DNA from: Thiotrichaceae bacterium
GTDB lineage: Bacteria; Pseudomonadota; Gammaproteobacteria; Thiotrichales; Thiotrichaceae
NCBI GenBank assembly: GCA_023144895.1
Contig: JAGLEV010000009.1
Span: 1 to 64,000 of the forward strand
Length of the DNA: 64,000 nucleotides
Direction: 5' to 3'
Position 1 is the first letter of the stretch; each line of letters starts with the position of its first letter. The notes beneath the pieces are model-generated. The model was not told where the DNA came from. It saw only the letters and a list, made by a program, of their open reading frames with translations, and ran no database searches. Below, piece by piece: positions 17,095-61,885 of this stretch. A program made the position numbers and the translations under genes.

Positions 17095-20000
17095 CTAGCT
17101 TGAAGATGCACTTTCTGGTGTGCTAGAAGTTGGCTGTTCTTTTTCAACCTTGGCTTTTGTTGGTTTGGCTTTAGGTGTTTCTTTCAATTCACCTGCTTCT
17201 ATTTTTTTTGATGTTGCCTTCACCTTTACTGGCTCTTTAGTTTCCTTTTTTGCCACTGTCGGTTTTGATGCTTTTTTAGCGGCTGGAGCTTTTTTTGCAA
17301 CCATTTCAGGCTTGCTATCTATTGCCTTAGTTTTTTCTGGCTTTGCCTCTTTGCTTACAGGCTTTCTTGTCGGCTCTTTCTTTGTCTTGGCTTGCTCAAC
17401 TTTGCTTGCCTCCTTCGGCTTGCTAGCTTTTTCCTCTTTGCTTACAGGCTTCTTGGCCGGCTCTTTATTCGCCTTGGGTTGCTCAGCGTTGTGTACTTCC
17501 TTCGGCTTGCTAGGTTTTTCCTCTTTACTAACAGGCTTCTTGGTCGGCTCTTTATTCGCCTTGGGTTGCTCAGCGTTGTGTACTTCCTTCGGCTTGCTAG
17601 GTTTTTCCTCTTTACTAACAGGCTTCTTAGTTGACTCTTTGTTTACCTTGGGTTGCTCAGCGTTGCGTACTTCCTTCGGCTTGCTAGGTTTTCCTTCTTT
17701 ACTAACAGGCTTCTTGGTCGGCTCTTTATTCGCCTTGGGTTGCTCAGCGTTGCGTGCTTCCTTCGGCTTGCTAGGTTTTTCCTCTCTACTCACAGGCTTC
17801 TTGATCGGTTCTTTATTCACCTTGGCTTGCTCTACCGTACTTGCTTCTTTAGGTTTGCTTGCTTGGGTTTCTTTACTAATATTAGGCTGCTCTATATTAC
17901 TTGCCTTGCTTTCATTTTTCGCAGATTTAACGTTTGTACCTTTTTCTGTTGCTAAATCTTTAGCAACCTTCGCCGTTGTGCTTTGGATTTTTTCACTAGA
18001 GATTGTCCGCTTTTTCTTCGCTGGAGGTTTTTTGCGTGAACGAGTCGATGTAGGTGCAGGGATTTTTATCTCAATCGGAGTCATATCCATTTGATCATGA
18101 TCAATGGGAGTATGTTTTGGTGGAGACTTTCTTCTCTGGTTTGAGTTATATCGATTCGTTCTCTTGTTGCGTTGAGAGTATGTATTGCCATTGGCTTCTT
18201 GTGTGTTCTGGACTTGATTGTCCTCTGGCTTTCTGTTTCCGTTTTGCTCTTGTCTCTGGTTCTGATTAGGATTGCGTTCTTGCTGATTATTAGGCTGTTG
18301 TTGCCCTTGGTTTTGATTAGGACTGCGTTCTTGCTGGTTATTCGGCTGCTGTTGTCCTTGGTTTTGATTAGGATTGCGTTTTTGTTGATTGTTAGGCTGT
18401 TGTCCTTGGTTTTGATTAGGATTGCGTTTTTGTTGGTTATTAGGCTGTTGTTGTCCTTGGTTTTGATTAGGATTGCGTTTTTGTTGGTTATTCGGCTGTT
18501 GTTGCCCTTGGTTCTGATTAGGATTGCGTTTTTGTTGGTTATTAGGCTGTTGTTGCCCTTGGTTTTGATTGGGATTACGTTTTTGTTGGTTATTAGGCTT
18601 CTGCCCTTGATTCTGGTTAGGGTTGCGTTTCTGCCGATTATTATTGTTTTGCTGAGAGCGATGGTTATTATTTTGTGTTCTTGGCTTAGCAGTGCTTGGT
18701 TTAGCTTCAGCTTTCACTTCCTCAGTAGCAGGCGTTGCTTTATTAGCAAAAATATTACCAAAGACACGGCGGATAAAACTTGTGTTTTCAGCTACTGGTT
18801 CTTTTACTTCTGAGCTTGTATTAGCAGGAGAAGGCATGGGCATATCTGGCATGACAGGAGCAACAACAGGAGTTTCTGCACGTGGTGTATTATCTACTGG
18901 ATTGCTATCTGAATCTTGTTTGGACTGTTGTACTTTATGGTATTTGTCATAACTTGCGCCTGTGTCATTGCTGATATCTTGCACTCGGTTACGTTCAATC
19001 TCATAATGAGGTGTTACCATATGGGGATTAGGTAAAATAACAATATCAATATCATGCTGTTCTTGTAACTTATTGAGTGTTGGACGCTTTTCATTAAGTA
19101 AGAAGCAGGCGACATCAACAGGTACTTGTGTCGTTACCTTCTTCGTCATGTTTTTCATGGCTTCATCTTCAATGAGACGAAGAATAGACAAAGCTAAAGA
19201 TTCAACACCACGGAAGGTGCCATGACCACTACAACGTGGGCAAACAATCTGGCTAGACTCATCTAATGAAGGGCGTAAACGTTGACGTGACATTTCTAAA
19301 AGACCAAAGCGTGAAATGCGTCCAATTTGGACACGTGCACGGTCAATTTTTAGTTTTTCACGTAAGCGCTTTTCAACACTGCGTTGATTTCTATTGGGCA
19401 TCATGTCGATAAAGTCAATAACGACGAGTCCACCAAGGTCACGTAAACGTAACTGTCGTGCAATTTCTTCAGCGGCTTCTAAATTGGTATTGAGAGCGGT
19501 CTCTTCAATATCACCACCCTTAGTCGCACGGGCAGAGTTAATATCAATAGAGATGAGTGCTTCAGTATGATCGATAACAATTGCACCACCTGATGGTAGC
19601 GTAACTTCACGTTCAAAGGCTGACTCAATTTGATGCTCAATTTGGTAACGACTAAAGAGTGGCGTACTTTTGTCTCTATAGAGTTTGAGTTTATTGATAT
19701 TGTGAGGCATTACTGCCTTAACAAACTCACAAGCTTGGTTATAGATACTTTCCTTATCAAAGATAATCTCACCCACATCAGGGCGGAAGTAATCCCGCAA
19801 GGTGCGGATAATTAAGTTACTCTCCTGATAGAGGAGTGTCGGGGCTTTGTGCTTTTTATGAGCAAACTGGATAGCACTCCAGAGCATTTTGAGATAATCT
19901 AAATCCCACGATAGCTCTTCAAGCTCACGTCCTAAGCCTGCGGTACGTACAATGGCACCACCATTCTCAATATCCAACTCATTAAGAATCTGCTTGATGC

Positions 20001-20445
20001 GATGACGATCTTCACCCTCAATGCGACGTGAAACACCACCTGCCTTAGGGTTGTTCGGCATTAATACTAAAAAACGACCTGCTAGACTGATATATGTCGT
20101 TAAGCTCGCGCCTTTATTGCCTCGCTCTTCTTTATCGATTTGAATAAGGACTTCTTGCCCTTTACGCATCACTTCTTTAATTGATGGGCGGCCTTCTGTT
20201 TTAGTCTTTTTCCAATACTCGTGAGAGATTTCTTTAAAGGGTAAAAAACCATGGCGCTCAGCACCATAATCGACAAAAGCTGCGTTTAGGCTGGGTTCAA
20301 TACGTGTAATTGTGCCCTTGTAAATATTGGATTTTTTTTGAACATGATTGGTATGCTCGATGTCGAGGTCATAAAGATATTGACCATCCACCATTGCAAC
20401 TCTAATTTCTTCCTGCTCAGTTGCATTTATTAATATTCTTCTCAT
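17095..20445 (-). CDS. rne: Ribonuclease E with repeat-rich C-terminal tail
   Basis: RNase E is the endonuclease that starts bulk mRNA decay and matures tRNA and rRNA. The catalytic half is canonical. It has an S1 domain at about 35-125, [13 protein letters not shown] near 300 and VIDFIDM near 343 supplying the two metal-binding aspartates, and the zinc-link CPRCSGHG near 405. The C-terminal half (about 520-1116) is disordered. It contains eight 16-17-residue repeats of the form [17 protein letters not shown] (about 605-737), then six 29-residue K/E/P-rich repeats containing [15 protein letters not shown] (about 861-1035). The start is a clear ATG with CAGGA nearby. It is divergent from rluC, as in E. 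coli. A 963-base gap upstream leaves room for a long autoregulatory leader. Confidence 0.97.
17360..17880 (-). repeat. 87-bp tandem repeats in rne (29-residue K/E/P-rich units)
   Basis: About six in-frame copies of an 87-bp unit encode [19 protein letters not shown] plus ten more residues ending Q-P-K-A-N. The period was checked from two near-identical copies at 17464 and 17551. Copies differ by a few substitutions, more at the edges, as expected from repeated unequal crossover or slippage. Confidence 0.9.
18240..18635 (-). repeat. 48/51-bp tandem repeats in rne (N/Q/R-rich units)
   Basis: Eight in-frame copies of a 48- or 51-bp unit encode RNPNQNQGQ(Q)QPNNQQK. Unit length varies by one glutamine codon. 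Central copies are nearly identical, so the array is young or being homogenised. These are prone to change in copy number between strains. Confidence 0.9.
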
Positions 20446-28574: not shown

Positions 28575-30740
28575 TTAGGTAATCACTTGAGGGCTGGAAA
28601 GTTGTGGAATACGTGTTGCATCACTGACATGAGCCAGTTTATTAAGCTTTGCAACAAGCTTTTTCAGTTCTTTTGTATGGGTAACACGGATAAGAACCTC
28701 AATTCTTTTACTTCCCTTATCTCCAAAAATATTAATATCTTCAATATCAATATCAGCCTGTTGAAACTGTTGTGTAATTTCAAATAAAACACCTTGTTGG
28801 TGTTGTGCACGCAAGGCAAGAGGGACAAGGTAACTGAGGGTTTCACTTGTATCCCATGCAGCTGTTAGTTGTTTTTTATGATGAATATGCCTAAGAATAG
28901 AACAGTCGTTACGATGAACGGCTAAGCCACGATTATCAATAATAGCCGCAGTAATCGTGTCATCAGGTATTGGGTGGCAACAAGTGCTTAATTGCACGGC
29001 AAGACCTTTGGCGCCTCTAATATAAAAGGCCTGTTCTGTTCTATTCGTGCTTTCGATGTTGTCCGTTTCTAATAGGCGGTGAGTGATTAGTTTAGAGCAT
29101 TGATTACCTTTAGCAATTTCAATGAATAACTGCTGTATATTGGTTATTTCTAGTGTTTCTAATAGCGTATCAATAATTTCAGGAGCAATATCCTCAAGCT
29201 TTTTTTCTACATTATTGAGTGTATTTTTAAATAATCGCTCACCAATTTCAATATATTCACTGTTCTCATAAGAGGTTAACCAGCTTCGAATGGCTGAACG
29301 AGCTTTACCCGTGACAACAAAGTTTTGCCAAGAAGGATGAGGGATAGCATTAGGGTTAGTAATAATTTTAACCGTTGCACCATCATGTAACTGAGTGTTT
29401 AAAGGCTTGCGTCGACCATCAATATAGGCACCAGTACAGTGATGACCAATATCGGTATGAATAGCATAGGCAAAGTCAACGGGGGTAGCCCCTATTCGTA
29501 ATGCTTTAGCTTCTCCTTTCGGTGTGAGAACAGAGACTTCACGCAAAAAGAAGTCAGCTTTCATATCCGCAAGGAAGGCTTCGGGGTCACCAGTATATTG
29601 TTGTATTTCTTTAACTTGTTCTAGCCATGCTGATAAGCGACTTTGCGCTAGATTAAATTTATTTTTGTAGTCTAGTTGAGGGAATCGCCATTGTGCAGCA
29701 ATACCATATTGAGCGACCTGAAACATTTCACGGCTTTGAATTTGAATACAGATTAGGTTTTGATTTTTTGTAATGACCGTGGTTTGTAATGCTTGGAATC
29801 CATAGACTTTAGGGACAGAAATAAAATCTTTAAAGCTACCAATTTTTGGCAAGAAAAGGTTGTGAATAACACCAAGTGCAAGATAGCACTGTTGTGATGA
29901 CTGGGTAAGAATACGAATATCATAGGAAATAGCATCACGACTAAAGTGAATGGGATTCTTGTGTTGTTTTCTATCTTCATACAGTCGATAAAGGTTTTTT
30001 TCCCAATGAAAAACAGTGCTATTTTTATCAAGTTCCTTATTGAGAGAGGTCTGTATTTTACTCATGATTTTTTCATGATTGTCTTGTTGTTCATCAAGAC
30101 ATTTTTGCCACCACCGAGAGAGTATACTACTACGCCATGGGTGTAAGCTTTGAAAAGCAAACATTTGTAAGCTGTGACGAAGTGTATTCATGCCCATGCG
30201 GCGTGCTAAAGGGACATGTATCTCTAGTGTTTCTTGAGCAATGCGACGCTGTTTTACTGGTCGCATAGAGCTTAATGTTTTTACATTATGTAAGCGGTCA
30301 GCCAGTTTAATAATCACAACACGGTAGTCATCAACCATGGCAGTCATCATTTTTTGAAAGCTTGCCATACCAGCATCGTACTTATTACTAAAATTTTCAT
30401 AGGAGAGTTTTGTTACTCCTTCAACAAGATCAGCAACGGTATCACCAAATTCATTAGCAATATCATTATGGGTATAGTCAGTATCTTCGATAACATCATG
30501 GAGTAGAGCAGCACAGAGAGTATCTACATCTAAATGTAAATCAGCTAGGGTGTGGGCAACTTCTAAAGGGTGGCTGATATAAGGTTCGCCTGATTTGCGA
30601 GTAACACCTTCATGCGCGACAGCAGCATAAAGAAAAGCCTCATAGACTTTTTTAACTTCCTCTTCAGATAAATAACGTTCTGTTAATCGACACAGATCGA
30701 CCATGCGAAAACTGACCTTGGATGTTTTTAGATATTCCAT
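28575..30740 (-). CDS. spoT: SpoT, (p)ppGpp hydrolase with a degenerate synthetase domain
   Basis: SpoT controls the level of the alarmone (p)ppGpp. The hydrolase domain (about 40-185) is intact: H57, H81-D82, E85-D86 in HDVIEDT, and D148 in KLADRLHN. The synthetase domain (about 240-360) is eroded. The usual GYQSLHT reads GFQALQT (314-320), the catalytic glutamate of EVQIRT is cysteine in CIQIQS (331-336), the aspartate of DIYAFR is lost (SYDIR, 272-276), and the GR before the Y-rich helix reads HW. TGS (about 385-450) and C-terminal ACT domains remain. It is preceded by rpoZ and followed by ridA. It should degrade but not make (p)ppGpp; a separate RelA elsewhere would be needed. Confidence 0.95.
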   Translation of the reverse strand: MEYLKTSKVSFRMVDLCRLTERYLSEEEVKKVYEAFLYAAVAHEGVTRKSGEPYISHPLEVAHTLADLHLDVDTLCAALLHDVIEDTDYTHNDIANEFGDTVADLVEGVTKLSYENFSNKYDAGMASFQKMMTAMVDDYRVVIIKLADRLHNVKTLSSMRPVKQRRIAQETLEIHVPLARRMGMNTLRHSLQMFAFQSLHPWRSSILSRWWQKCLDEQQDNHEKIMSKIQTSLNKELDKNSTVFHWEKNLYRLYEDRKQHKNPIHFSRDAISYDIRILTQSSQQCYLALGVIHNLFLPKIGSFKDFISVPKVYGFQALQTTVITKNQNLICIQIQSREMFQVAQYGIAAQWRFPQLDYKNKFNLAQSRLSAWLEQVKEIQQYTGDPEAFLADMKADFFLREVSVLTPKGEAKALRIGATPVDFAYAIHTDIGHHCTGAYIDGRRKPLNTQLHDGATVKIITNPNAIPHPSWQNFVVTGKARSAIRSWLTSYENSEYIEIGERLFKNTLNNVEKKLEDIAPEIIDTLLETLEITNIQQLFIEIAKGNQCSKLITHRLLETDNIESTNRTEQAFYIRGAKGLAVQLSTCCHPIPDDTITAAIIDNRGLAVHRNDCSILRHIHHKKQLTAAWDTSETLSYLVPLALRAQHQQGVLFEITQQFQQADIDIEDINIFGDKGSKRIEVLIRVTHTKELKKLVAKLNKLAHVSDATRIPQLSSPQVIT

Positions 30741-50350: not shown

Positions 50351-51580
50351 ATGGCAAACAAACGTGAAGATATGGTTGTTGCTTTAGATATTGGTACATC
50401 AAAAGTTGTTGCATTAGTTGGTGAAGTAGACCTTGATGGACGATTAAGTGTTATTGGTATTGGTAAGCAACCCTCCCGTGGAATGAAAAAAGGCGTAGTG
50501 GTTAATATTGACGCGACGATTGATTCTATTCAGCGTGCAATAGAAGAAGCAGAGCTAATGGCGGGCGTTAATATCGAAACGGTTTATTGTGGTATTGCTG
50601 GTAGTCATATACGCAGTATGAATTCACATGGGGTTGTGGCGATTAAAGAAAAAGAAGTGACTGATGCAGATGTGGATCGGGTAATGGATTCAGCTAGAGC
50701 GATTGCAATACCTGCGGATCAACAAGTCATTCATGTATTACCACAAGAATTTATTATTGATAATCAAGATGGTATTCGTGATCCTGTGGGTATGTTTGGT
50801 GTTCGCTTGGAAGCCCGAGTACATATGGTAACAGGCGCTCAAAGTGCTGCTCAAAATATTATCAAGTGCGTAAAGCGTTGTGGTTTAACGGTGAGTGATA
50901 TTATTTTAGAGCAAGTCGCATCTAGTTTGGCGGTATTGCAAGATGATGAGAAAGAGTTAGGTGTTTGTATTGTTGATATCGGTGCAGGAACAACGGATAT
51001 CGCCATTTATGTGAATGGTTCAATACAGCATACAGCGGTTATTCCTATTGCAGGTAACCAAGTGACTAGTGATATCGCATTTGCAGTACGTACACCAACA
51101 ATGAGTGCGGATATGATTAAAATTAAACATGGCTCCGCATTACGTCAACTAGCGGGAACAGAAATCATTGAGGTACCTAGTGTGGGTGAGCGGGCACCTA
51201 GAGGATTGTCAGCAGAGATTTTGGCATCTTTTATTGAGCCACGTTATGAAGAACTATTTTTAATGGTCAAAGATGAGTTAAGTCGTAGTGGATACGATCA
51301 GAAAATTGGTGCAGGTATTGTACTAACGGGCGGTTCATCTTTGGTAAAAGGAGCAGTTGAGCTGGCTGAAGAAATATTTAATCTGCCAGTTCGTATTGGA
51401 ATGCCAAGAGATATTGGCGGGTTGAAAGGCGAGGTTGAGAACCCAATTCACTCAACTGGTATTGGTTTACTACTTTACGGTGTAGACCAACAAGCCTATG
51501 GTGATAATCATTCGTTTGTAAATACTAATAAAGAGAGCTTTTGGACACGATTTAAAAATTGGCTTAATGGAAATCTTTGA
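50351..51580 (+). CDS. ftsA: Cell division protein FtsA
   Basis: FtsA is an actin-like ATPase that tethers FtsZ to the membrane. Motifs are ALDIGTSKVVALVGE near 11 (phosphate 1), VDIGAGTTDIAIY near 210 (phosphate 2) and GIVLTGGSSLVKG near 321 (adenosine). The C-terminal amphipathic membrane-targeting helix ends SFWTRFKNWLNGNL. TTAGGAGA precedes the ATG. 409 residues is slightly shorter than the E. coli protein, normal for the family. Confidence 0.97.
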   Translation: MANKREDMVVALDIGTSKVVALVGEVDLDGRLSVIGIGKQPSRGMKKGVVVNIDATIDSIQRAIEEAELMAGVNIETVYCGIAGSHIRSMNSHGVVAIKEKEVTDADVDRVMDSARAIAIPADQQVIHVLPQEFIIDNQDGIRDPVGMFGVRLEARVHMVTGAQSAAQNIIKCVKRCGLTVSDIILEQVASSLAVLQDDEKELGVCIVDIGAGTTDIAIYVNGSIQHTAVIPIAGNQVTSDIAFAVRTPTMSADMIKIKHGSALRQLAGTEIIEVPSVGERAPRGLSAEILASFIEPRYEELFLMVKDELSRSGYDQKIGAGIVLTGGSSLVKGAVELAEEIFNLPVRIGMPRDIGGLKGEVENPIHSTGIGLLLYGVDQQAYGDNHSFVNTNKESFWTRFKNWLNGNL

Positions 51581-51649
51581 TACCCAGAAGATTCCAACAA
51601 ATGACTTCTGATGAAGAAGTATTAATACAACGAAGTAAGGTCTTAATGA

Positions 51650-51678
51650 CCAAATAAATAACGAAGCTGGAGTGTAAT
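51650..51678 (+). promoter_or_regulatory. ftsZ leader with strong ribosome binding site
   Basis: The 29 bases before ftsZ contain GGAG at 51669-51672, six bases before ATG. Almost the same stretch occurs before the second ftsZ at 54164-54190, with two single-base deletions and few substitutions. This copy keeps the full GGAG. Confidence 0.8.
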
Positions 51679-52851
51679 ATGTTTGAAATGATAGATACAA
51701 ATGAAACAACAGCCAATATACGAGTAATTGGTGTTGGTGGTGGTGGCGGAAACGCAGTAAAAAATATGGTTGAGTCTGGTATTGAAGGTGTTGAGTACAT
51801 GTGTGCTAATACTGATGCACAGGCACTACAAAGCACAGGTGTTGATAGCTTGTTGCAGCTTGGTAATGCATTAACAAAAGGCTTGGGCGCTGGAGCAAAT
51901 CCAGAAGTAGGGCGTGAAGCGGCACTAGAAGACCGTGAGACAATTAAAGAGCTAGTGGGTGAAACTGATATGCTCTTTATTACGGCTGGCATGGGTGGCG
52001 GTACGGGTACGGGTGCAGCACCTGTTGTTGCAGAAATGGCAAGAGAGTTAGGTGTATTAACCGTTGCTGTTGTGACTAAGCCGTTTCCTTTTGAAGGCCC
52101 TAAGCGCATGAAAGCAGCAGAAGCGGGGATTGATGAGTTAAGCAAGTATGTTGACTCGATTATTACTATCCCTAATGAGAAGCTATTGAGCTCTTTAGGT
52201 AAGCACATTACGCTTATCGATGCGTTCAAAGCGGCTAACGATGTACTACTTAACGCGGTACAAGGCATCTCTGAGCTAATTACTCGCTCAGGCTTGATCA
52301 ATGTTGACTTCGCGGATGTGCGTACTGTCATGACAGGCAAGGGTGTTTCAATGATGGGCACCGGTGTTGCCCGTGGTGAAGATCGTGCAACGACAGCGGC
52401 AAGAGCAGCGATTTCAAGCCCTTTGCTTGAAGATGTTTCTCTTAAAGGCGCACAGGGTATTCTAGTGAATATCACCGGTGGGCTTGATATGGGAATTCAT
52501 GAGTTTGATGAAGTAGGTAATATCATTCGTGAATTTGCCTCTGATGACGCTGTTGTTGTGGTTGGCAATGTGGTTGATCCTGAAATGAGCGATGAAATTC
52601 GTGTGACTTTGGTTGCTACAGGTCTTGAGCAAGATAAAGTAGAAGTTGCAGCTCCTGTGGTTGATCCACAGCATAATCCAGGCGCTTTACGTGCTGTTCG
52701 TGTTGCACATGATCCTTATCAGGGGCGACAAACTCAGCGAGTCGTAGGTAGTGATGTTAATCATGAAACACAACAACAACAGCAACAAGCTGAGACTGAT
52801 AACTCAAACTTACTCGATATACCTTCATTCTTGCGTAACCAAGCGAACTAA
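51679..52851 (+). CDS. ftsZ: Cell division GTPase FtsZ (copy 1, canonical)
   Basis: FtsZ polymerises into the division ring. N-terminal [16 protein letters not shown], the tubulin signature [16 protein letters not shown] near 107 and the T7 catalytic loop NVDFADVRTVM near 210 are intact. A C-terminal linker with a run of glutamines leads to the conserved peptide LDIPSFLRNQAN, the docking site for FtsA and ZipA. It has 390 residues. It ends the canonical cluster 98 bases after ftsA. The usual next gene lpxC is absent. Confidence 0.97.
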   Translation: MFEMIDTNETTANIRVIGVGGGGGNAVKNMVESGIEGVEYMCANTDAQALQSTGVDSLLQLGNALTKGLGAGANPEVGREAALEDRETIKELVGETDMLFITAGMGGGTGTGAAPVVAEMARELGVLTVAVVTKPFPFEGPKRMKAAEAGIDELSKYVDSIITIPNEKLLSSLGKHITLIDAFKAANDVLLNAVQGISELITRSGLINVDFADVRTVMTGKGVSMMGTGVARGEDRATTAARAAISSPLLEDVSLKGAQGILVNITGGLDMGIHEFDEVGNIIREFASDDAVVVVGNVVDPEMSDEIRVTLVATGLEQDKVEVAAPVVDPQHNPGALRAVRVAHDPYQGRQTQRVVGSDVNHETQQQQQQAETDNSNLLDIPSFLRNQAN

Positions 52852-53155
52852 AACAGGTTTGCTTCAGATACTTCGTTGAGTGATCCTATGTTGAGACATA
52901 GGGTTGCTATTGAAGATTTGAATTTTATGGCTAAAAAATGAAGACTGTTTCATATCAACAATAGGCTGAGTTAATCAATCGGTCAGTTGCAGTGCGGGCT
53001 GTTTTGTTACTAATATTAATCGATTAAACCCGATCAGTATTATTCCCTTGTTATCGTGTGATTGGAAAGTCAGGTATTGACAGGTTTATGGTGGATTACA
53101 TCAGTAATTTTTGTTAGTTTGAGAAGCCAATGATAATACAAACTAAGAGTAAACT
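52852..53155. other. Intergenic region after ftsZ
   Basis: About 300 bases without a gene. A short stem CCTATG/CATAGG at 52885-52902 may mark the end of the cluster, but no T-run follows. A TTGACA at 53077-53082 lacks a -10 at proper spacing. The PhnA-like gene begins at 53156 (GTAAACT before ATG, weak ribosome binding site). Confidence 0.5.
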
Positions 53156-53725
53156 ATGAGCCTTATCGAATCATTAAAAACACGTGCAGATTCACAGTGC
53201 GAATTGTGTCAATCAAAAGATCTGCTTGATGCCTATAGTGTTCCTCCCAGTGAAAATGCAACGATAGACCAATCTGTTTTATTATGTTCGATGTGTTTAT
53301 CTTCATTGAATGCGACAGAAGCGAGTGAGCATTGGCGTTGTCTTAGTGATACCATGTGGTCAACTGAACCTGCTGTGCAGGTTATGGCGTGGCGTTTACT
53401 GACCCAGCTTAATGAACACGCTTGGGCTAACGGCTTATTAGATGGGCTATATCTTGAAGATGATGTTTTACAATGGGCGCAATCAATAGAAAATAGTCAC
53501 GATGATGATCAGCTGATGACTCGTGACAGTAATGGAGCACCATTAGCAACAGGCGATAGCGTCACCTTAATTAAAGACCTTGTAGTGAAAGGTGCAAACT
53601 TTACCGCTAAACGTGGAACTAGCGTGAAAAATATTCGTTTAACGGATAATCCTCTGCATATCGAAGGTAAAGTCAATGGTACTCAGATTGTACTAGTCTC
53701 GGCTTTCTTAAAGAAACAAGCATAA
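53156..53725 (+). CDS. PhnA/YjdM-family zinc-ribbon protein
   Basis: The N-terminus has a zinc ribbon with CELC near residues 18-21 and CSMC near 46-49. The C-terminal part is the PhnA domain, with DSNGAPLATGDSVTLIKDLVVKG and a terminal strand-rich module. PhnA proteins were named from an E. coli phosphonate operon, but no phosphonate-degrading activity follows from the fold and their role is unclear. At 189 residues it has both domains plus a spacer. It lies between the two ftsZ copies, which is an unusual location. Confidence 0.9.
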   Translation: MSLIESLKTRADSQCELCQSKDLLDAYSVPPSENATIDQSVLLCSMCLSSLNATEASEHWRCLSDTMWSTEPAVQVMAWRLLTQLNEHAWANGLLDGLYLEDDVLQWAQSIENSHDDDQLMTRDSNGAPLATGDSVTLIKDLVVKGANFTAKRGTSVKNIRLTDNPLHIEGKVNGTQIVLVSAFLKKQA

Positions 53726-54163
53726 ATTTTTTTTACCCTTTATTGGTTAAATCACTCCTCCTATCTACCTTCTTGTAGATATGGGTTAAGCTTTAAGTAC
53801 ATAGTGACCTAATACACTAACTAGCTCAAAATATTTGTATAAATGAGTCTTCAAGCTGTCATCTGTGTTGTTATTCTTGCTCACAATTACTTACTGAAAT
53901 ACTTAATAATTAACCACTTGGAAGTCAATTTTTGTCATGCTTTAGCGAATGGATGTACTAATGTATCAACTGGGTTTTATTGATAATTTTAAATTTAATC
54001 GCCTAAAAATCCAGTGTCTATGTTAATTTTTCAGTGTTGCGATTCAGATAAAAATTAAAGAGTTCTTATTATATTTAGAACGCTCTTCAGAGAGTACTAG
54101 AGTGTGAATAAAAAAGCTGTTTTAATACACATATTGAAACAGTCTATAAAAACGGTTTTAGAG
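53726..54163. other. Intergenic region between the PhnA-like gene and the second ftsZ
   Basis: No gene is seen. A T-run follows the PhnA-like gene closely without a good stem. An in-frame GTG at 54104 could add 29 residues to the second FtsZ, but those residues resemble nothing in FtsZ and correspond to the copied leader, so I treat this as non-coding. Confidence 0.5.
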
Positions 54164-54190
54164 CCAAATAATAACGAATCTGGGTGTAAT
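54164..54190 (+). promoter_or_regulatory. Copied ftsZ leader with weakened ribosome binding site
   Basis: This stretch matches the leader of the first ftsZ (51650-51678) almost base for base up to the ATG. The Shine-Dalgarno GGAGTG has become GGGTG by loss of one base, which should lower translation. It shows that the duplication included non-coding DNA. Confidence 0.75.
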
Positions 54191-55273
54191 ATGTTTGAAG
54201 TAATAGAAGATGAGGAAATAACCGCAAATATTCGAGTCATTGGTGTTGGTGGTGGCGGCGGAAACGCTGTTGAAAATATGGTTGAGGCAGGTATTGAAGG
54301 TGTTGTGTATATGTGTGCAAACACTGATGCACAGGCATTACAAAAGACAGGTATTGATAATTTATTACAAATAGGCAAAGTGCTAACCAATGGATTGGGA
54401 GCAGGTGCAGACCCTCTTGTCGGTCGTGAAGCGGCATTGGAAGATCGTGAAGAGCTAAAATCTTTTGTGAACGGAGCTGATATGCTCTTTATCACTGCTG
54501 GTATGGGAGGTGGGACAGGTACTGGAGCTGCACCTGTGGTGGCTGAAATAGCGCGTGAATTAGGTGTGTTAACCGTTGCCGTAGTGACTAAGCCATTTCC
54601 TTTTGAAGGTCCTAAACGCATGAAAATGGCGGAAGAGGGTATTACTGAACTCAGTAAGCACGTTGATTCTATTATTACTATTCCTAATGTAAAGTTACTT
54701 AGCTCACTTGACCCTAAAGCTTCTCTTATTGATGCCTTTAAGGCGGCTAATGATGTGTTGCTCAATGCGGTACAGGGTATCTCTGAGCTTATTACACGTC
54801 CTGGTTTGATCAATGTTGATTTCTCTGATGTCCGTACCGTGATGACGGATAAGGGTGTATCAATGATGGGAACGGGCGTTGCTACGGGTGATGAGCGAGC
54901 AGTCGCCGCCGCTAGATCAGCAATTTCAAGTCCATTATTGGAAGATGTTTCACTAAAAGGTGCTCAGGGTATTTTAGTGAATATTACGGCAGGCTTTGAT
55001 ATGGGAATTCATGAGTTTGATGAAGTGGGTAGTATTATCCGAGAACTTGCATCTGATGATGCGATTGTTGTTATTGGTAATGCACTTGACCCTGAAATGA
55101 GCGATGAAATTCGGGTAACACTGGTTGCTGCAGGCTTAGGAAAAGCAGAAGTAGAAGACATTGCTGCTGCTCCTAAGCCAGGCTTAGGAGTACCTCCTAT
55201 AGAGGAGGCTAGACCAGCCACTGAGCTGCCTCCTGTCATTCCTGTTATTGAGCGCCCTGGCTTTCTAAGGTAA
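54191..55273 (+). CDS. Second FtsZ paralogue (FtsZ2)
   Basis: A full FtsZ GTPase of 360 residues aligned with copy 1 without gaps through most of the GTPase domain. [32 protein letters not shown] and the T7 loop [11 protein letters not shown] are intact, so it should bind and hydrolyse GTP. The linker is short and proline-rich without the glutamine run, and the protein ends VIERPGFLR. The conserved end peptide is altered and lacks the last residues (K/NQAD/N). I start it at ATG 54191, which matches the start of copy 1; GTG 54104 is less likely. It may co-polymerise with copy 1 or tune ring geometry. That role is inference. Confidence 0.93.
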
Positions 55274-55337
55274 ATAAACAGGGTTAGCCTGTATCAATAC
55301 AGTCGTTCCTGTTAGATTGTAGCCAAAAATCTATTGT

Positions 55338-56717
55338 TTATATTGCCTTAGAAAACTGTTGCTTACCAGTCTGTTTGCGCTGGTAGGCATCAAAGACCAT
55401 ACAGATATTACGAATTAATAAACGCCCTGTGGCAGTCACTTCTACTTTGCCATTTTTCAAGATCAATAAATCATCCTCCGCCATGATTGCCAGTTCCTTC
55501 ATTTCAGTGGCAAAGTAGTCATTAAAATTAATCGTAAACTTTGTTTCTATGGTTTGCATATCCAGTGTAAAGTGACAGCTTAATTGTTGAATAATTTGAT
55601 GACGTATTAGATCCTCATCAGTTGAAGCAATACCTCGTATAATCGGTAAATGCTTGTCATCAATTTGCTGATAATATGCTTCTATATTTTTATCATTTTG
55701 ACAATAGGCATTATTGACTTTACTGATTGCACTCACTCCCATTGCGACTAAATCACAGTCAGCATGAGTTGTATATCCTTGAAAATTACGGTGTAGCGAG
55801 CCTTTTCTTTGTGCTTGAGCTAACTCATCATCAGGCTTGGCAAAGTGATCCATGCCAATATAAACATAACCTGCATCGGTTAGCGCCTCGATGGTTTTTT
55901 GTAAGATAATTAGCTTATCTTCTGCAATCGGTAAATCATCTTCGTTGATGCGACGTTGTGGTTTGAATATATGTGGCAGATGAGCATAATTAAAGATCGA
56001 TAAGCGATCAGGTGATAGCTCAATCACACGTTGTAAGGTCGTCGTGAAGCTATCAATCGTTTGTAGGGGTAAACCATAGATTAAATCGATGCTAATGGAG
56101 TGAGTATTATTGTCACGACAGGCATCAATAATCGTCTTAGTTTCTTCAATTGGTTGAATGCGGTTAACGGCTTTTTGTACCTTGTCATCAACATCTTGTA
56201 CACCAAGACTAAAGCGGTTAAAGCCTACCTCTCGTAATAGCTTAATCGTTTCCTTGCTGACACTACGTGGATCAATCTCAATAGAGTAATCACCACTATC
56301 ATCATCTAATAAATTAAAAGATTGACGGGTATAAGCCATTAAATCTTTAATTTGCTGATGGTTCAGAAAGGTCGGTGTGCCTCCTCCCCAATGTAACTGC
56401 TCAACGATACGAGATTGATCAAATAATCCAGCTTGAATATCAATTTCTCGATACAGGTAATCTAAGTACTTATCTGCTTTGGAATAATCTTTAGTGACCA
56501 CTTTATTACAGGCACAATAAAAACAGACGGTGTCACAAAAGGGGATATGAAAGTAGAGGGATAAAGGTGTGGCATGTTGGTTGCTGTCTTTTGCGTGCTG
56601 TAAGTAGTCAGCCTCAGTAAAATTAGGGCTAAAGGCAACCGCTGTGGGGTAAGAAGTGTAACGTGGTGCAGTGGTGTTGTAGCGCTTTATTTTTTCTGCA
56701 TCAAATTTAATTTTCAT
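55338..56717 (-). CDS. hemN: Oxygen-independent coproporphyrinogen III oxidase HemN
   Basis: HemN is a radical-SAM enzyme that makes protoporphyrinogen IX without oxygen. The 4Fe-4S motif is CDTVCFYCACNK near residue 60 (CxxxCxxC), preceded by YFHIPF. LHWGGGTPTFL near 108, GVQDVDDKVQKAVNRIQ near 173 and a C-terminal HemN domain follow. 459 residues is normal. An Fnr-type box about 70-80 bases upstream suggests induction at low oxygen. It is convergent with the second ftsZ. Confidence 0.96.
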   Translation of the reverse strand: MKIKFDAEKIKRYNTTAPRYTSYPTAVAFSPNFTEADYLQHAKDSNQHATPLSLYFHIPFCDTVCFYCACNKVVTKDYSKADKYLDYLYREIDIQAGLFDQSRIVEQLHWGGGTPTFLNHQQIKDLMAYTRQSFNLLDDDSGDYSIEIDPRSVSKETIKLLREVGFNRFSLGVQDVDDKVQKAVNRIQPIEETKTIIDACRDNNTHSISIDLIYGLPLQTIDSFTTTLQRVIELSPDRLSIFNYAHLPHIFKPQRRINEDDLPIAEDKLIILQKTIEALTDAGYVYIGMDHFAKPDDELAQAQRKGSLHRNFQGYTTHADCDLVAMGVSAISKVNNAYCQNDKNIEAYYQQIDDKHLPIIRGIASTDEDLIRHQIIQQLSCHFTLDMQTIETKFTINFNDYFATEMKELAIMAEDDLLILKNGKVEVTATGRLLIRNICMVFDAYQRKQTGKQQFSKAI

Positions 56718-56860: not shown

Positions 56861-57295
56861 TTATACATTATGAGGGTTGTTTTTAAGCCTTAGCCATGCT
56901 CGATGATATTTTTGCAGGCGCTGTAAATCCTCTTGATGCACTTCTTTTAATCGTAAGATATTGATATTATCTTCAATATCCGCTTTCTTGACTTTAGATG
57001 CTAAGGGGTTCTGTAATACTCTTTCAATAAACACATTATAATCTTCACCATCAGTTTTTGAAAGCGCAATGACAGCCTCAACAATATTGACAGGAATCCC
57101 TGCATTCAATAAATTGGTATGGGTATAAGCTGAATCTTCGATGACATCATGTAATATAGCAACTGACATTTCTTCTTCAGTATCCATCTTCTCCATCACT
57201 CTTAATGGATGAAGAATATAGGTCATTCCTGCCTTATCTTTCTTTCCTGAATAAGCATCTAAGGCAATTTTAAGTGATGTTTCAATAAGGTTCAT
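56861..57295 (-). CDS. Small HD-domain hydrolase of the (p)ppGpp hydrolase (SAH/MESH1) type
   Basis: A single-domain protein of about 144 residues that resembles the hydrolase domain of SpoT. The motif order is the same: YILHPLRV, ILHDVIEDSAYT with the HD and ED pairs, and KKADIEDN in place of KLADRLHN. Such small alarmone hydrolases degrade (p)ppGpp or related nucleotides in other species. I prefer ATG 57295; a TTG at 57322 is possible. It is 144 bases upstream of hemN on the same strand. The substrate is inferred from the motif only. Confidence 0.82.
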   Translation of the reverse strand: MNLIETSLKIALDAYSGKKDKAGMTYILHPLRVMEKMDTEEEMSVAILHDVIEDSAYTHTNLLNAGIPVNIVEAVIALSKTDGEDYNVFIERVLQNPLASKVKKADIEDNINILRLKEVHQEDLQRLQKYHRAWLRLKNNPHNV

Positions 57296-57363
57296 AATGG
57301 ACAACTCAGAAAGGTGTTGCAAAGACGCTGAATATAACGCCTTTGCAAGTTAAATTTAAGACC

Positions 57364-58637: not shown

Positions 58638-59645
58638 TTAACGCAACTCTGACACTAATTGCTTAAGCTCCACTGGCTTAAAGCGTTGTGCGCTAGGCAG
58701 ATCATAAAAAGTAATCTCATTAGGCTGGATAAAATTCGTTAAATTTTTAATAGCGATTTTAAGTTGTTTAATATTAATTTTATCAAGTACTAAAATATCA
58801 TCAGGATAGAGGTACTGACCTTGGTAATAATGCCCCTTATTGACATGGTAGCGACTCATACTAATTTTGGTCAGTTTTTTAAGATTGAGTGGGCTAATAC
58901 CACGACTCATATAAGCCCAGCGACCTTGTCGGATCACGCGTACCTGCTGATATAAAGGTAGAGCGAGATCAAGTGCGAGTGGGTAGCGTTTGAAGTTAAC
59001 AAGATAGCGTTTAGCCATACTATTATCGAGAATATAATTTTGTGTGGCAGGATCATAGATATCACTCATATTATAATACATGAGTACACCTTTAGTGACG
59101 GGAGGAACGCCCGTTCTTTCAAAAAATTTTACTTGATGCAGGCGTATGGTGACACTCACTTCTGCATATTGTTTACCGAGCTTTTCTAATAATTGAAAAT
59201 ACTTATCTTTTGTCGAATCACTCCAATCACAATCAATTTGAATTTTTTGATGTTGCACACGATTAACCGCTTGATTAATCAATGACATGATCTTAGATTC
59301 TTTGCTTTGTTTTAATGCCATATTAGAGAGATAAATAACAGGTATGTAATTAACGGTAATCTCTTGTTTAAACTTGGTTTTATTGATTATTAACTGATTG
59401 TTTCGGTAGGCAAGATCCAAGAACTTTATATACAGTCTATGGGGGGCATATTTTTTTAATACCAGAGGGCTTACCTCATAGCTCTGTTGCCAATAGTAAT
59501 AGGATATAGGGATAGAGCTTTGAGTTAATGGTTTATCAAATATTAGTATCGTGCCAATGAAGCTAAGGACGAGCAAGATAACTAGTTTTAGTTCCGATGG
59601 AAAGGAACGAGGTCTACGTTTTAAAAATTCATATAAGCCGCGCAT
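58638..59645 (-). CDS. Membrane-anchored protein, possible TIM-barrel fold, unknown function
   Basis: I do not recognise a named family. A basic N-terminus and a membrane helix at about 20-41 anchor a large domain of about 290 residues, probably periplasmic. The pattern of strands and loops (IQIDCDWS near 136, VSVTIRLHQV near 163, GVLMYYNMSD near 185, ALDLALPL near 222) suggests a barrel like glycoside hydrolases, with acidic residues at strand ends. It overlaps the preceding 754-residue gene by 25 bases, so the two are made together. Envelope polysaccharide or protein handling is speculative. Confidence 0.8.
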   Translation of the reverse strand: MRGLYEFLKRRPRSFPSELKLVILLVLSFIGTILIFDKPLTQSSIPISYYYWQQSYEVSPLVLKKYAPHRLYIKFLDLAYRNNQLIINKTKFKQEITVNYIPVIYLSNMALKQSKESKIMSLINQAVNRVQHQKIQIDCDWSDSTKDKYFQLLEKLGKQYAEVSVTIRLHQVKFFERTGVPPVTKGVLMYYNMSDIYDPATQNYILDNSMAKRYLVNFKRYPLALDLALPLYQQVRVIRQGRWAYMSRGISPLNLKKLTKISMSRYHVNKGHYYQGQYLYPDDILVLDKINIKQLKIAIKNLTNFIQPNEITFYDLPSAQRFKPVELKQLVSELR

Positions 59646-61885
59646 TCTTTAATCACTTCATTGTAATATTGAGTATCTTGATAATCCTTTATTTTCTTAA
59701 AATAGATGCCAAAACCTAACGCCTTTTTCTTTGCCATACTTTCAGCATAAGAATCATGGTCATCAGTCAAAAAATCTGGCCAGTGACTTTCCTTGTTGGC
59801 AGCAAATTTAATGAGGTTTTCATTGTTTTCTATCTTTGCTAAAGCATAGAGTGATTTGACAACTAATTCACGATCATTATCTAATGCAATGATTTTCTGG
59901 TAGTGCTTTTTTGCCATAGTCATATCTAGAGCACCACCATAGTGTGATGTTGTTGAACGAAACTCACGAATCAACATTGGTGAGTTACCAAACCATGACA
60001 TATTATAATAGGCTGTTGCGAGGATAAAATGGTTTTGGCTATTCTCTGGATTTTCTTTTATCTTTCTTTGGACTTCAAGTACAACCTCTGTAAATTTTTT
60101 CATAGTGAAGGGGGTCGATTTAATCCGATTATGACTACCACGGCTGGTAGTAAATGGGTTGTATGTTGTCTTCCATTGCTTTGTATTTTTTGCTTGTTCT
60201 AGCGATTCTTTTGCCTTAGAAAATAAACCTGCTGAGAGATACTTCTTAGCATAAATAGTTTCAATATTATGGCTATGTTTTAAATGTTCTTTTAAGGGTT
60301 GGCTGAGCTGAACCTCAAGAGCACTAGGCTTATCTTTCTTTAATAAAGCATTAAGATCTCGAAGTTGATAAATAATCATATTATCAATAGTAATGTCACC
60401 TCTATTTTTACTAACATAGTGTTTTCCCTCTTCTTTGTTGTTTTTATAGAAAGATTCTAGTTTAGTGAAGGTATAGATAATATAATCATCTATTTCATAA
60501 TCATAGTCAGACTCATTCTTTTTTGTATTTTTGGCGATAGCCTCTAAGTAATTTGATATTTCTCGCTCTTTATTAGCATCGACTTTATCCATATTGTTCA
60601 AGTAGGCATAAAGCTCTAATTTATTAACATATTGGGCACGAGGGTCTTGGGCGTAGGCTTTTATAAAGCTTTGCACATCACTTGTTGCAAGTTTATTCGT
60701 TGAGAGCAATTCTAGGTATAGCTGAGCATATCGAGCAAAGAATAAATCCTTACGCTTATTCTCTTTAATAATTTTCTTGACCTGTGTGCTGAGCTTTTGA
60801 AGGTAGCTAATACGCCGTTGTTCCAGTTGTTTTCTCTCCGCATCTGTTGTTCTGGAGTCCTGATATTTATCAAGATCAGCAATCAACACAGCATTCATTT
60901 TTTTAAGTTTTGGGTTCTGGGTATATTCATAATACCGACTAAACTGTACATACTCTAACTCTCGATAAAGTAAGGAATCGAGCCATTTTGAATTGGGGGC
61001 TAAGGCATAAATTGTTTTAAACTCTTCTAAGGTATTCGCATTTGTCTTTGTGGCTCGCATAAAGTGCATTAAGGCTTTTTCATTATCATTTTTACACAGT
61101 GCGATTAGTTGACTCCATTGCTCATCTGTTGTAATCCGAAAATCAACATGAGCGGCTACGCGTTTAGTCGTCGAGTCACGATAAACCATTGCGAAGAGAT
61201 AGGCAGATTCTGCGGGTTTATTCGCTCTTAGACTTCCTGCTTTTAAAGAAATAATCCATTGTTTTACTTCATTATCAAGCGCATTAATATCAGCATTATA
61301 TTTTTCATACAGCCGTGCAACAGGTTCTTCACTATGGTTAGAGCCAACATTAGTATAGTGAGCTAAGCGAATCATCAAGAAAACATATCGTTGACGCAAG
61401 AAAGGCGCTTTTGTTGTCTCTAATTGCTTTTCTATCCGCTTAATCATTGTTTTAGCCATCTCTGCTTCTTTGGCTTGACGCTGAATAGCATCCTCAGCTG
61501 TCTCCTTCCATTTTACTGCAAAGTTAACGAGAGGCTCTTGTTCATGGGCAATATCCATATATTCACGAACGGCTTTAGGAAGACTGTCTAGATTCTTTTT
61601 TTTATAAATAATCAGTTCAGCATCTTCTTTAGATATGTTCAAGAACTCTGCCCATGCTCTAAGATTATAGTGTTGAAATACTCCCCTCTCACTATATTCA
61701 ACCCATGTGTAAGTTGTTGAATTAAAGTTTGTTGGGCGCTTTATTAGTGTATCAATCAGCTTATGATGTAAAACATTAAAGCCACGATCTACAAAAAAAG
61801 GTTTGTAGGACTCACCTCCACCTGCAAGCGCAATGTTAGCTAATAAGTAACAAATCATAGCAAGAGTATATTTCATTGGACTCAT
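59621..61885 (-). CDS. Exported large helical-repeat protein, unknown function
   Basis: A 754-residue protein with a signal peptide at about 4-22 (cleavage near ALAGG) and no other membrane segment. The body is largely helical with many short tandem helices, such as ENSQNHFILATAYYNMSWFG near 650, resembling TPR solenoids. An ATG at 61876, nine bases downstream, is an alternative start. GGAG lies before the first ATG. It is translated together with the membrane-anchored 335-residue protein by a 25-base overlap. No catalytic motif was recognised; it may be a periplasmic scaffold for its partner. Confidence 0.8.
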   Translation of the reverse strand: MSPMKYTLAMICYLLANIALAGGGESYKPFFVDRGFNVLHHKLIDTLIKRPTNFNSTTYTWVEYSERGVFQHYNLRAWAEFLNISKEDAELIIYKKKNLDSLPKAVREYMDIAHEQEPLVNFAVKWKETAEDAIQRQAKEAEMAKTMIKRIEKQLETTKAPFLRQRYVFLMIRLAHYTNVGSNHSEEPVARLYEKYNADINALDNEVKQWIISLKAGSLRANKPAESAYLFAMVYRDSTTKRVAAHVDFRITTDEQWSQLIALCKNDNEKALMHFMRATKTNANTLEEFKTIYALAPNSKWLDSLLYRELEYVQFSRYYEYTQNPKLKKMNAVLIADLDKYQDSRTTDAERKQLEQRRISYLQKLSTQVKKIIKENKRKDLFFARYAQLYLELLSTNKLATSDVQSFIKAYAQDPRAQYVNKLELYAYLNNMDKVDANKEREISNYLEAIAKNTKKNESDYDYEIDDYIIYTFTKLESFYKNNKEEGKHYVSKNRGDITIDNMIIYQLRDLNALLKKDKPSALEVQLSQPLKEHLKHSHNIETIYAKKYLSAGLFSKAKESLEQAKNTKQWKTTYNPFTTSRGSHNRIKSTPFTMKKFTEVVLEVQRKIKENPENSQNHFILATAYYNMSWFGNSPMLIREFRSTTSHYGGALDMTMAKKHYQKIIALDNDRELVVKSLYALAKIENNENLIKFAANKESHWPDFLTDDHDSYAESMAKKKALGFGIYFKKIKDYQDTQYYNEVIKECAAYMNF

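Follow-up and report, generated by a model that had tools for sequence, protein, structure and literature searches.

Two ftsZ genes at one locus of a Thiotrichaceae bacterium and the altered tail of the second copy

FtsZ builds the bacterial division ring, and its C-terminal tail peptide normally ties this ring to the membrane. In gammaproteobacteria, the class from which the standard division machinery is known, FtsZ is almost always encoded by a single gene. Pairs of FtsZ proteins are known from plastids and archaea. Plastid FtsZ1 is a duplicate of the tail-bearing FtsZ2, co-assembles with FtsZ2 and speeds its turnover, and later work found that FtsZ1 is itself able to reach the membrane via another motif (PMC12343686). 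For the archaeal FtsZ1 and FtsZ2 of Odinarchaeota and Haloferax a different membrane tethering of the two proteins has been described (PMC12583498). Here we analyze a Thiotrichaceae genome that carries two ftsZ genes at one locus, encoding Z1 and Z2. As in the plastid pair FtsZ1/FtsZ2 (FtsZB/FtsZA), the second FtsZ arose by duplication and the conserved C-terminal peptide is found in one copy only. The plastid pair, however, is of cyanobacterial origin and tethered by ARC6, and its co-assembly is known, whereas the pair described here is a lineage-specific bacterial duplication with FtsA and ZipA as partners, for which co-assembly can be predicted from sequence. With the archaeal pair it has in common the presence of two FtsZ proteins, which differ in their tails here and in tethering there; the archaeal duplication predates the Asgard lineage and tethering involves SepF and an N-terminal helix. 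Plastid and archaeal pairs are thus ancient, unlike a duplicate confined to the lineage of one species. If the reading developed below is correct, a slow copy and a fast anchor-less copy would represent a young and testable case of the evolution of a two-FtsZ ring.

The two ftsZ genes and their surroundings

The window, meaning the whole 64-kb stretch of DNA that was analyzed, contains the end of the dcw cluster in the order ftsQ, ftsA, ftsZ1, followed by a PhnA/YjdM-like gene, ftsZ2 and a converging hemN-like gene. The gene ftsA (50351–51580, plus strand), named from conserved synteny with relatives, is the normal upstream neighbour of ftsZ and shows 68–77% identity to the ORFs at the ftsA position in relatives. 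It is followed by the leader (51638–51678, plus strand) and the coding region (51679–52851, plus strand) of the canonical ftsZ1, whose product Z1 has 390 amino acids and ends with the tail LLDIPSFLRNQAN. The PhnA/YjdM-like gene (53156–53725, plus strand; PF03831, 95.5 bits) lies between the two copies. A copy of the leader (54153–54190, plus strand) then precedes ftsZ2 (54191–55273, plus strand), which starts with the ATG at 54191 and encodes the 360 amino acids of Z2. The hemN-like gene (55338–56717, minus strand), named from its translation, converges on ftsZ2 and forms the outer boundary of the locus. Both ftsZ ORFs are intact and full-length, their products reach 424 (Z1) and 414 bits (Z2) against the FtsZ equivalog TIGR00065 with its cut-off of 295, and both show the Pfam domains Tubulin and FtsZ_C (PF00091 and PF12327) above cut-off. 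The first-pass annotation had described a second full-length ftsZ past the canonical one, separated from it by a PhnA-like gene, and was right on both points. The entire genome (2.64 Mb, completeness 100%, contamination 0.07%) contains exactly these two FtsZ matches. Their cores are 83% identical at the protein and 76.6% at the DNA level, and the GC contents of the two copies are alike (0.448 and 0.455).

The gene downstream of ftsZ in relatives is lpxC, with secA located further along. In the genome studied here the dcw cluster is broken straight after ftsZ (52852–55337 of the window), and another contig (C89; L111: 10121–14683) carries lpxC together with secA and a conserved ORF of 138 aa that adjoins lpxC, secA now being upstream of lpxC. 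A tblastn search for a remnant of ftsZ near the relocated lpxC gave nothing meaningful. In the relatives examined the PhnA-like and hemN-like genes adjoin neither ftsZ nor each other, and homologues of the hemN-like gene were found away from ftsZ in 10 of 10 genomes searched. The duplication is thus located where the end of the cluster has been rearranged, and the two events are associated in place. The two copies had been called a tandem duplication, and a nearby copy is indeed present; the combination of adjacent copies, shared flanks and ancestral gene order that marks a simple tandem is not seen, with the PhnA-like gene in between and the cluster rearranged downstream. Because the cluster breaks after ftsZ and lpxC and secA are located on another contig, a point that the first-pass annotation did not mention, "tandem" is a loose term for this arrangement.

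Origin and distribution of the second copy

In a phylogenetic tree of 39 FtsZ proteins Z1 and Z2 are sisters inside the genus (support 100/99), and no grouping of Z2 with a distant lineage was seen. Trees in which Z1 joins the genus without Z2 were rejected by the AU test, both for the three nearest species (p = 0.001) and for all five (p = 0.009). Moreover, Z1 and Z2 have both changed at seven alignment columns where the family is near-invariant, and in six of these the new residue is identical. The two leaders match over about 41 nt with an alignment score of 40, and the similarity stops about 41 nt before the ATG. The runner-up to the leader of ftsZ2 among the 272 ATG starts of the window, those of Z1 itself excepted, scores 19, and no ftsZ leader of a relative scores above 21 against that of ftsZ1. 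The match within the pair is thus clearly closer than that to the leaders of relatives. Since the segment AACGAAGC-GGAG of the leader also occurs in three further species of this genus, the leader alone is weaker evidence than the first-pass annotation held: the near-identity it reported stands, its rank as the best evidence for duplication does not, and we regard the tree and the shared derived residues as the stronger argument. These comparisons give good support to a duplication of ftsZ in the line leading to this Thiotrichaceae species, later than its divergence from the other genus members sampled.

The earlier proposal that DNA was duplicated and not transferred is therefore in line with the tree, the AU tests, the shared derived residues and the leader match. 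A transfer of ftsZ2 from another lineage, or a chimera of the assembly, would fit with its presence in this genome only and with the rearranged locus, but it has to be considered very improbable given the strongly supported sister position to Z1, the shared derived residues, a GC content that resembles that of ftsZ1 and the location of both copies on one contig of a genome with low contamination. On the basis of tree, AU tests and composition, transfer or contamination was rejected as the origin of Z2. Among codons for the same residue, 32 of 46 use the identical synonymous codon within the first 60 codons compared with 102 of 206 (p = 0.015), which is no more than suggestive of recent gene conversion.

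Genome-wide searches of the five other genomes of the genus gave a single ftsZ each, which rules out a second copy hidden elsewhere in these relatives and means that the pair is not retained across the genus, a point that had been raised for checking. No second intact ftsZ was found in the other genomes of the family, 57 of 63 giving a match and six incomplete genomes giving none; two family genomes (G061 and G066) have only fragments at contig edges, which resemble one split or one partial gene. In a class-wide sample FtsZ was found in 352 of 370 genomes, and besides the genome studied here a second near-full-length copy is present in G393, G428 and G392. None of these is linked to the first copy, and that of G392 is truncated at a contig edge and almost identical to its counterpart. 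Two more genomes, G645 and G753, came from a second sample, along with several strongly diverged FtsZ-like genes (29–35% identity), all unlinked. A second FtsZ in gammaproteobacteria is rare, though not unknown, in agreement with the earlier statement that it is unusual there. The proximal pair was found only in this genome among the samples surveyed, and a limited literature search found no earlier report of two FtsZ proteins in Thiotrichaceae.

Two FtsZ proteins are common in one alphaproteobacterial family (survey code f207), which is presumably Rhizobiaceae. As in our case a short copy exists beside a normal one and the tail motif is missing from the second FtsZ of G470 and G519, but the copies are unlinked and spread over the family, whereas here they are proximal and found in one species. 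The gammaproteobacterial genomes G645, G753, G428 and G393 likewise encode two full-length FtsZ proteins each, with the difference that the second gene is located on another contig or more than 1 Mb away and its product is 44–59% identical to Z1. Three of these four second proteins keep the tail motif. Taking all near-canonical second FtsZ proteins inspected, the motif is absent from those of G470, G519 and G393 and kept in those of G645, G753, G428 and G457; tail loss is thus not a rule among second FtsZ proteins, since several keep the full tail. The second FtsZ of G393 (L138), 52% identical to Z1 and without the C-terminal peptide, may show this pattern independently.

Divergence and possible role of Z2

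The synonymous distance between the two copies (dS by NG86, 1.35) is near that of the species pair G002–G005 (1.40), and as it reaches the level found between species the pair must have been kept for long. In contrast, dN is 0.117 versus 0.031 for G002–G005, nearly fourfold. Of 32 replacements that could be polarised with the genus, 29 fall on Z2 and 3 on Z1 (p = 2.6e-6), and Tajima counts with G002 as outgroup are 36 versus 8. A codon model that assumes equal time for both copies gave omega values of 0.0065 for Z1, 0.05 for Z2 and 0.02 elsewhere, which are rough because synonymous sites are near saturation. The omegas of Z1 and Z2 differ under the equal-time assumption (p = 2e-9), the difference not being significant without it, and the direction of the asymmetry rests also on the replacement counts. 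Omega = 1 for Z2 was rejected with the equal-time assumption and also without it (2 delta lnL about 39). The comparison of non-synonymous and synonymous change proposed by the first-pass annotation thus points to purifying selection on Z2; these comparisons show a conserved Z1 as the slow lineage and a faster Z2 that is still constrained. The open frame, the low omega and the intact motifs rule out that ftsZ2 is a pseudogene.

The GTPase core of Z2 is intact. Tubulin signature GGGTGTG, GGGG loop and the N/D/D residues of the T7 loop are present in both copies, and G20–G24, G106–G112, N208, D210 and D213 are invariant in Z1 and Z2, as expected from the GTP-binding and T7 loops already noted in both translations. 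Changes of Z2 at near-invariant positions include L61I, K67N, I89L, G174D, K175P, F286L and T314A, and also A212S in the T7 loop. The linker of Z2 is short, and its tail differs from the family tail LDIPAFLRNQAD, which is near-invariant in 33 FtsZ proteins of the family: Z2 ends with VIERPGFLR, L, D, I and A being replaced by I, E, R and G, and the protein stops straight after FLR. Z1 matches the canonical C-terminal peptide LDIPxFLRxQAD with LDIPSFLRNQAN, in which N stands for D as the last residue, and Z2 does not match it. The conserved tail is therefore present in one copy only, that of Z2 being degenerate rather than absent. Neither this tail nor the asymmetry between the copies had been noted by the first-pass annotation. 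The tail of E. coli FtsZ depends critically on I374 and L378 for ZipA, FtsA and MinC, loses SlmA binding with I374K and tolerates D373E alone (PMC4117426); ZipA binding is disrupted when I374, F377 or L378 is exchanged for alanine (PMC8669495). Z2 has R at the position of I374. Its degenerate tail and short linker predict weak binding of FtsA and ZipA, and residual binding is possible as the tail retains P, F, L and R. The genome encodes one ZipA and one MinC, so that the usual partners exist.

The distance from the PhnA-like gene to ftsZ2 is 465 bp, and the Shine-Dalgarno sequence of ftsZ2 is one base shorter than that of ftsZ1 (GGGTG instead of GGAGTG). Its position apart from the ftsQA promoter region together with the weaker ribosome-binding site suggests that Z2 is expressed separately and at a lower level than Z1. 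Promoter or terminator predictions for ftsZ2 showed no clear excess over chance, no known RNA element was found in the leader or the gap, and the folding of the leader is unremarkable.

From the origin, integrity, asymmetry and tail change of Z2 we infer a function that would be most likely a modulation of the ring in which Z2 itself provides no anchor, similar to what has been proposed for plastid FtsZ1. The duplication would have occurred near the rearrangement that also parted ftsZ from lpxC. Since neither half of the longitudinal GTPase interface has been lost, Z2 should still polymerise and co-assemble with Z1, and it would bind FtsA, ZipA, MinC and SlmA poorly. As a membrane-uncoupled and probably less abundant subunit it might then alter turnover, bundling or width of the ring anchored by Z1. 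The altered ring geometry, for example in filamentous or unusually shaped cells, that the first-pass annotation had suggested is at present conjecture. To such a kept paralogue, polymerising with Z1 and poorly anchored, we assign an about even chance. A role of Z2 identical to that of Z1, as redundant or dosage copy whose faster change reflects relaxed constraint only, would be compatible with a core that is 83% identical and has all motifs intact, with the remaining PxFLR of the tail and with the higher omega of Z2, which relaxation would likewise produce. We consider this unlikely, as decay would be expected over a dS of about 1.35, yet frame and core motifs are kept and specifically the tail is altered. 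Furthermore, the division of model bacteria is disturbed when FtsZ is in excess.

The altered tail and a likely transcription unit of its own past the 465-bp gap could also point to a Z2 specialised for stress, altered cell shape, an internal structure or the like, mainly apart from the division ring. A precedent is FtsZm of Magnetospirillum, whose deletion affects biomineralisation under some conditions only (PMC7017999). This is an unlikely explanation for the locus described here, since no functional gene partner is found nearby, the PhnA-like and hemN-like neighbours being unlinked in relatives, and since copolymerisation with Z1 would be hard to avoid at such a high core identity. An untethered subunit with intact polymerisation motifs and a degraded anchor might as well act as a negative modulator of division that poisons or thins the Z1 filaments when expressed. 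By sequence this would look the same as general modulation of the ring, but no regulatory signal was found and promoter-like sites do not exceed chance frequency, and we regard it as improbable. If Z2 does act as a poorly anchored modulator, a gammaproteobacterium might have independently evolved a two-component ring, with one FtsZ anchored and one not, via local duplication and thus repeating the plastid route, an idea that we put forward only tentatively.

Further genes in the window and in relatives

In the 3' part of an RNase E-like gene (17095–20445, minus strand, 1116 aa), beyond the catalytic domains, an 87-bp unit is tandemly repeated 5.6 times and a 51-bp unit 7.5 times. Neither of the two neighbouring ORFs at 58638–61885 (minus strand; 335 and 754 aa) has a match in Pfam or NCBIfam. 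A stand-alone HD-type ORF of 153 aa (56861–57322, minus strand) weakly resembles the N-terminal hydrolase part of SpoT/RelA, and a full-length gene of the SpoT/RelA type is located at 28575–30740. Among the relatives, the ftsZ of G077 (L089) runs off frame at its C-terminal end and that of G737 (G737:C1:2339401-2340578) is split into two overlapping pieces; both are likely the result of sequencing errors, though they may be real frameshifts.
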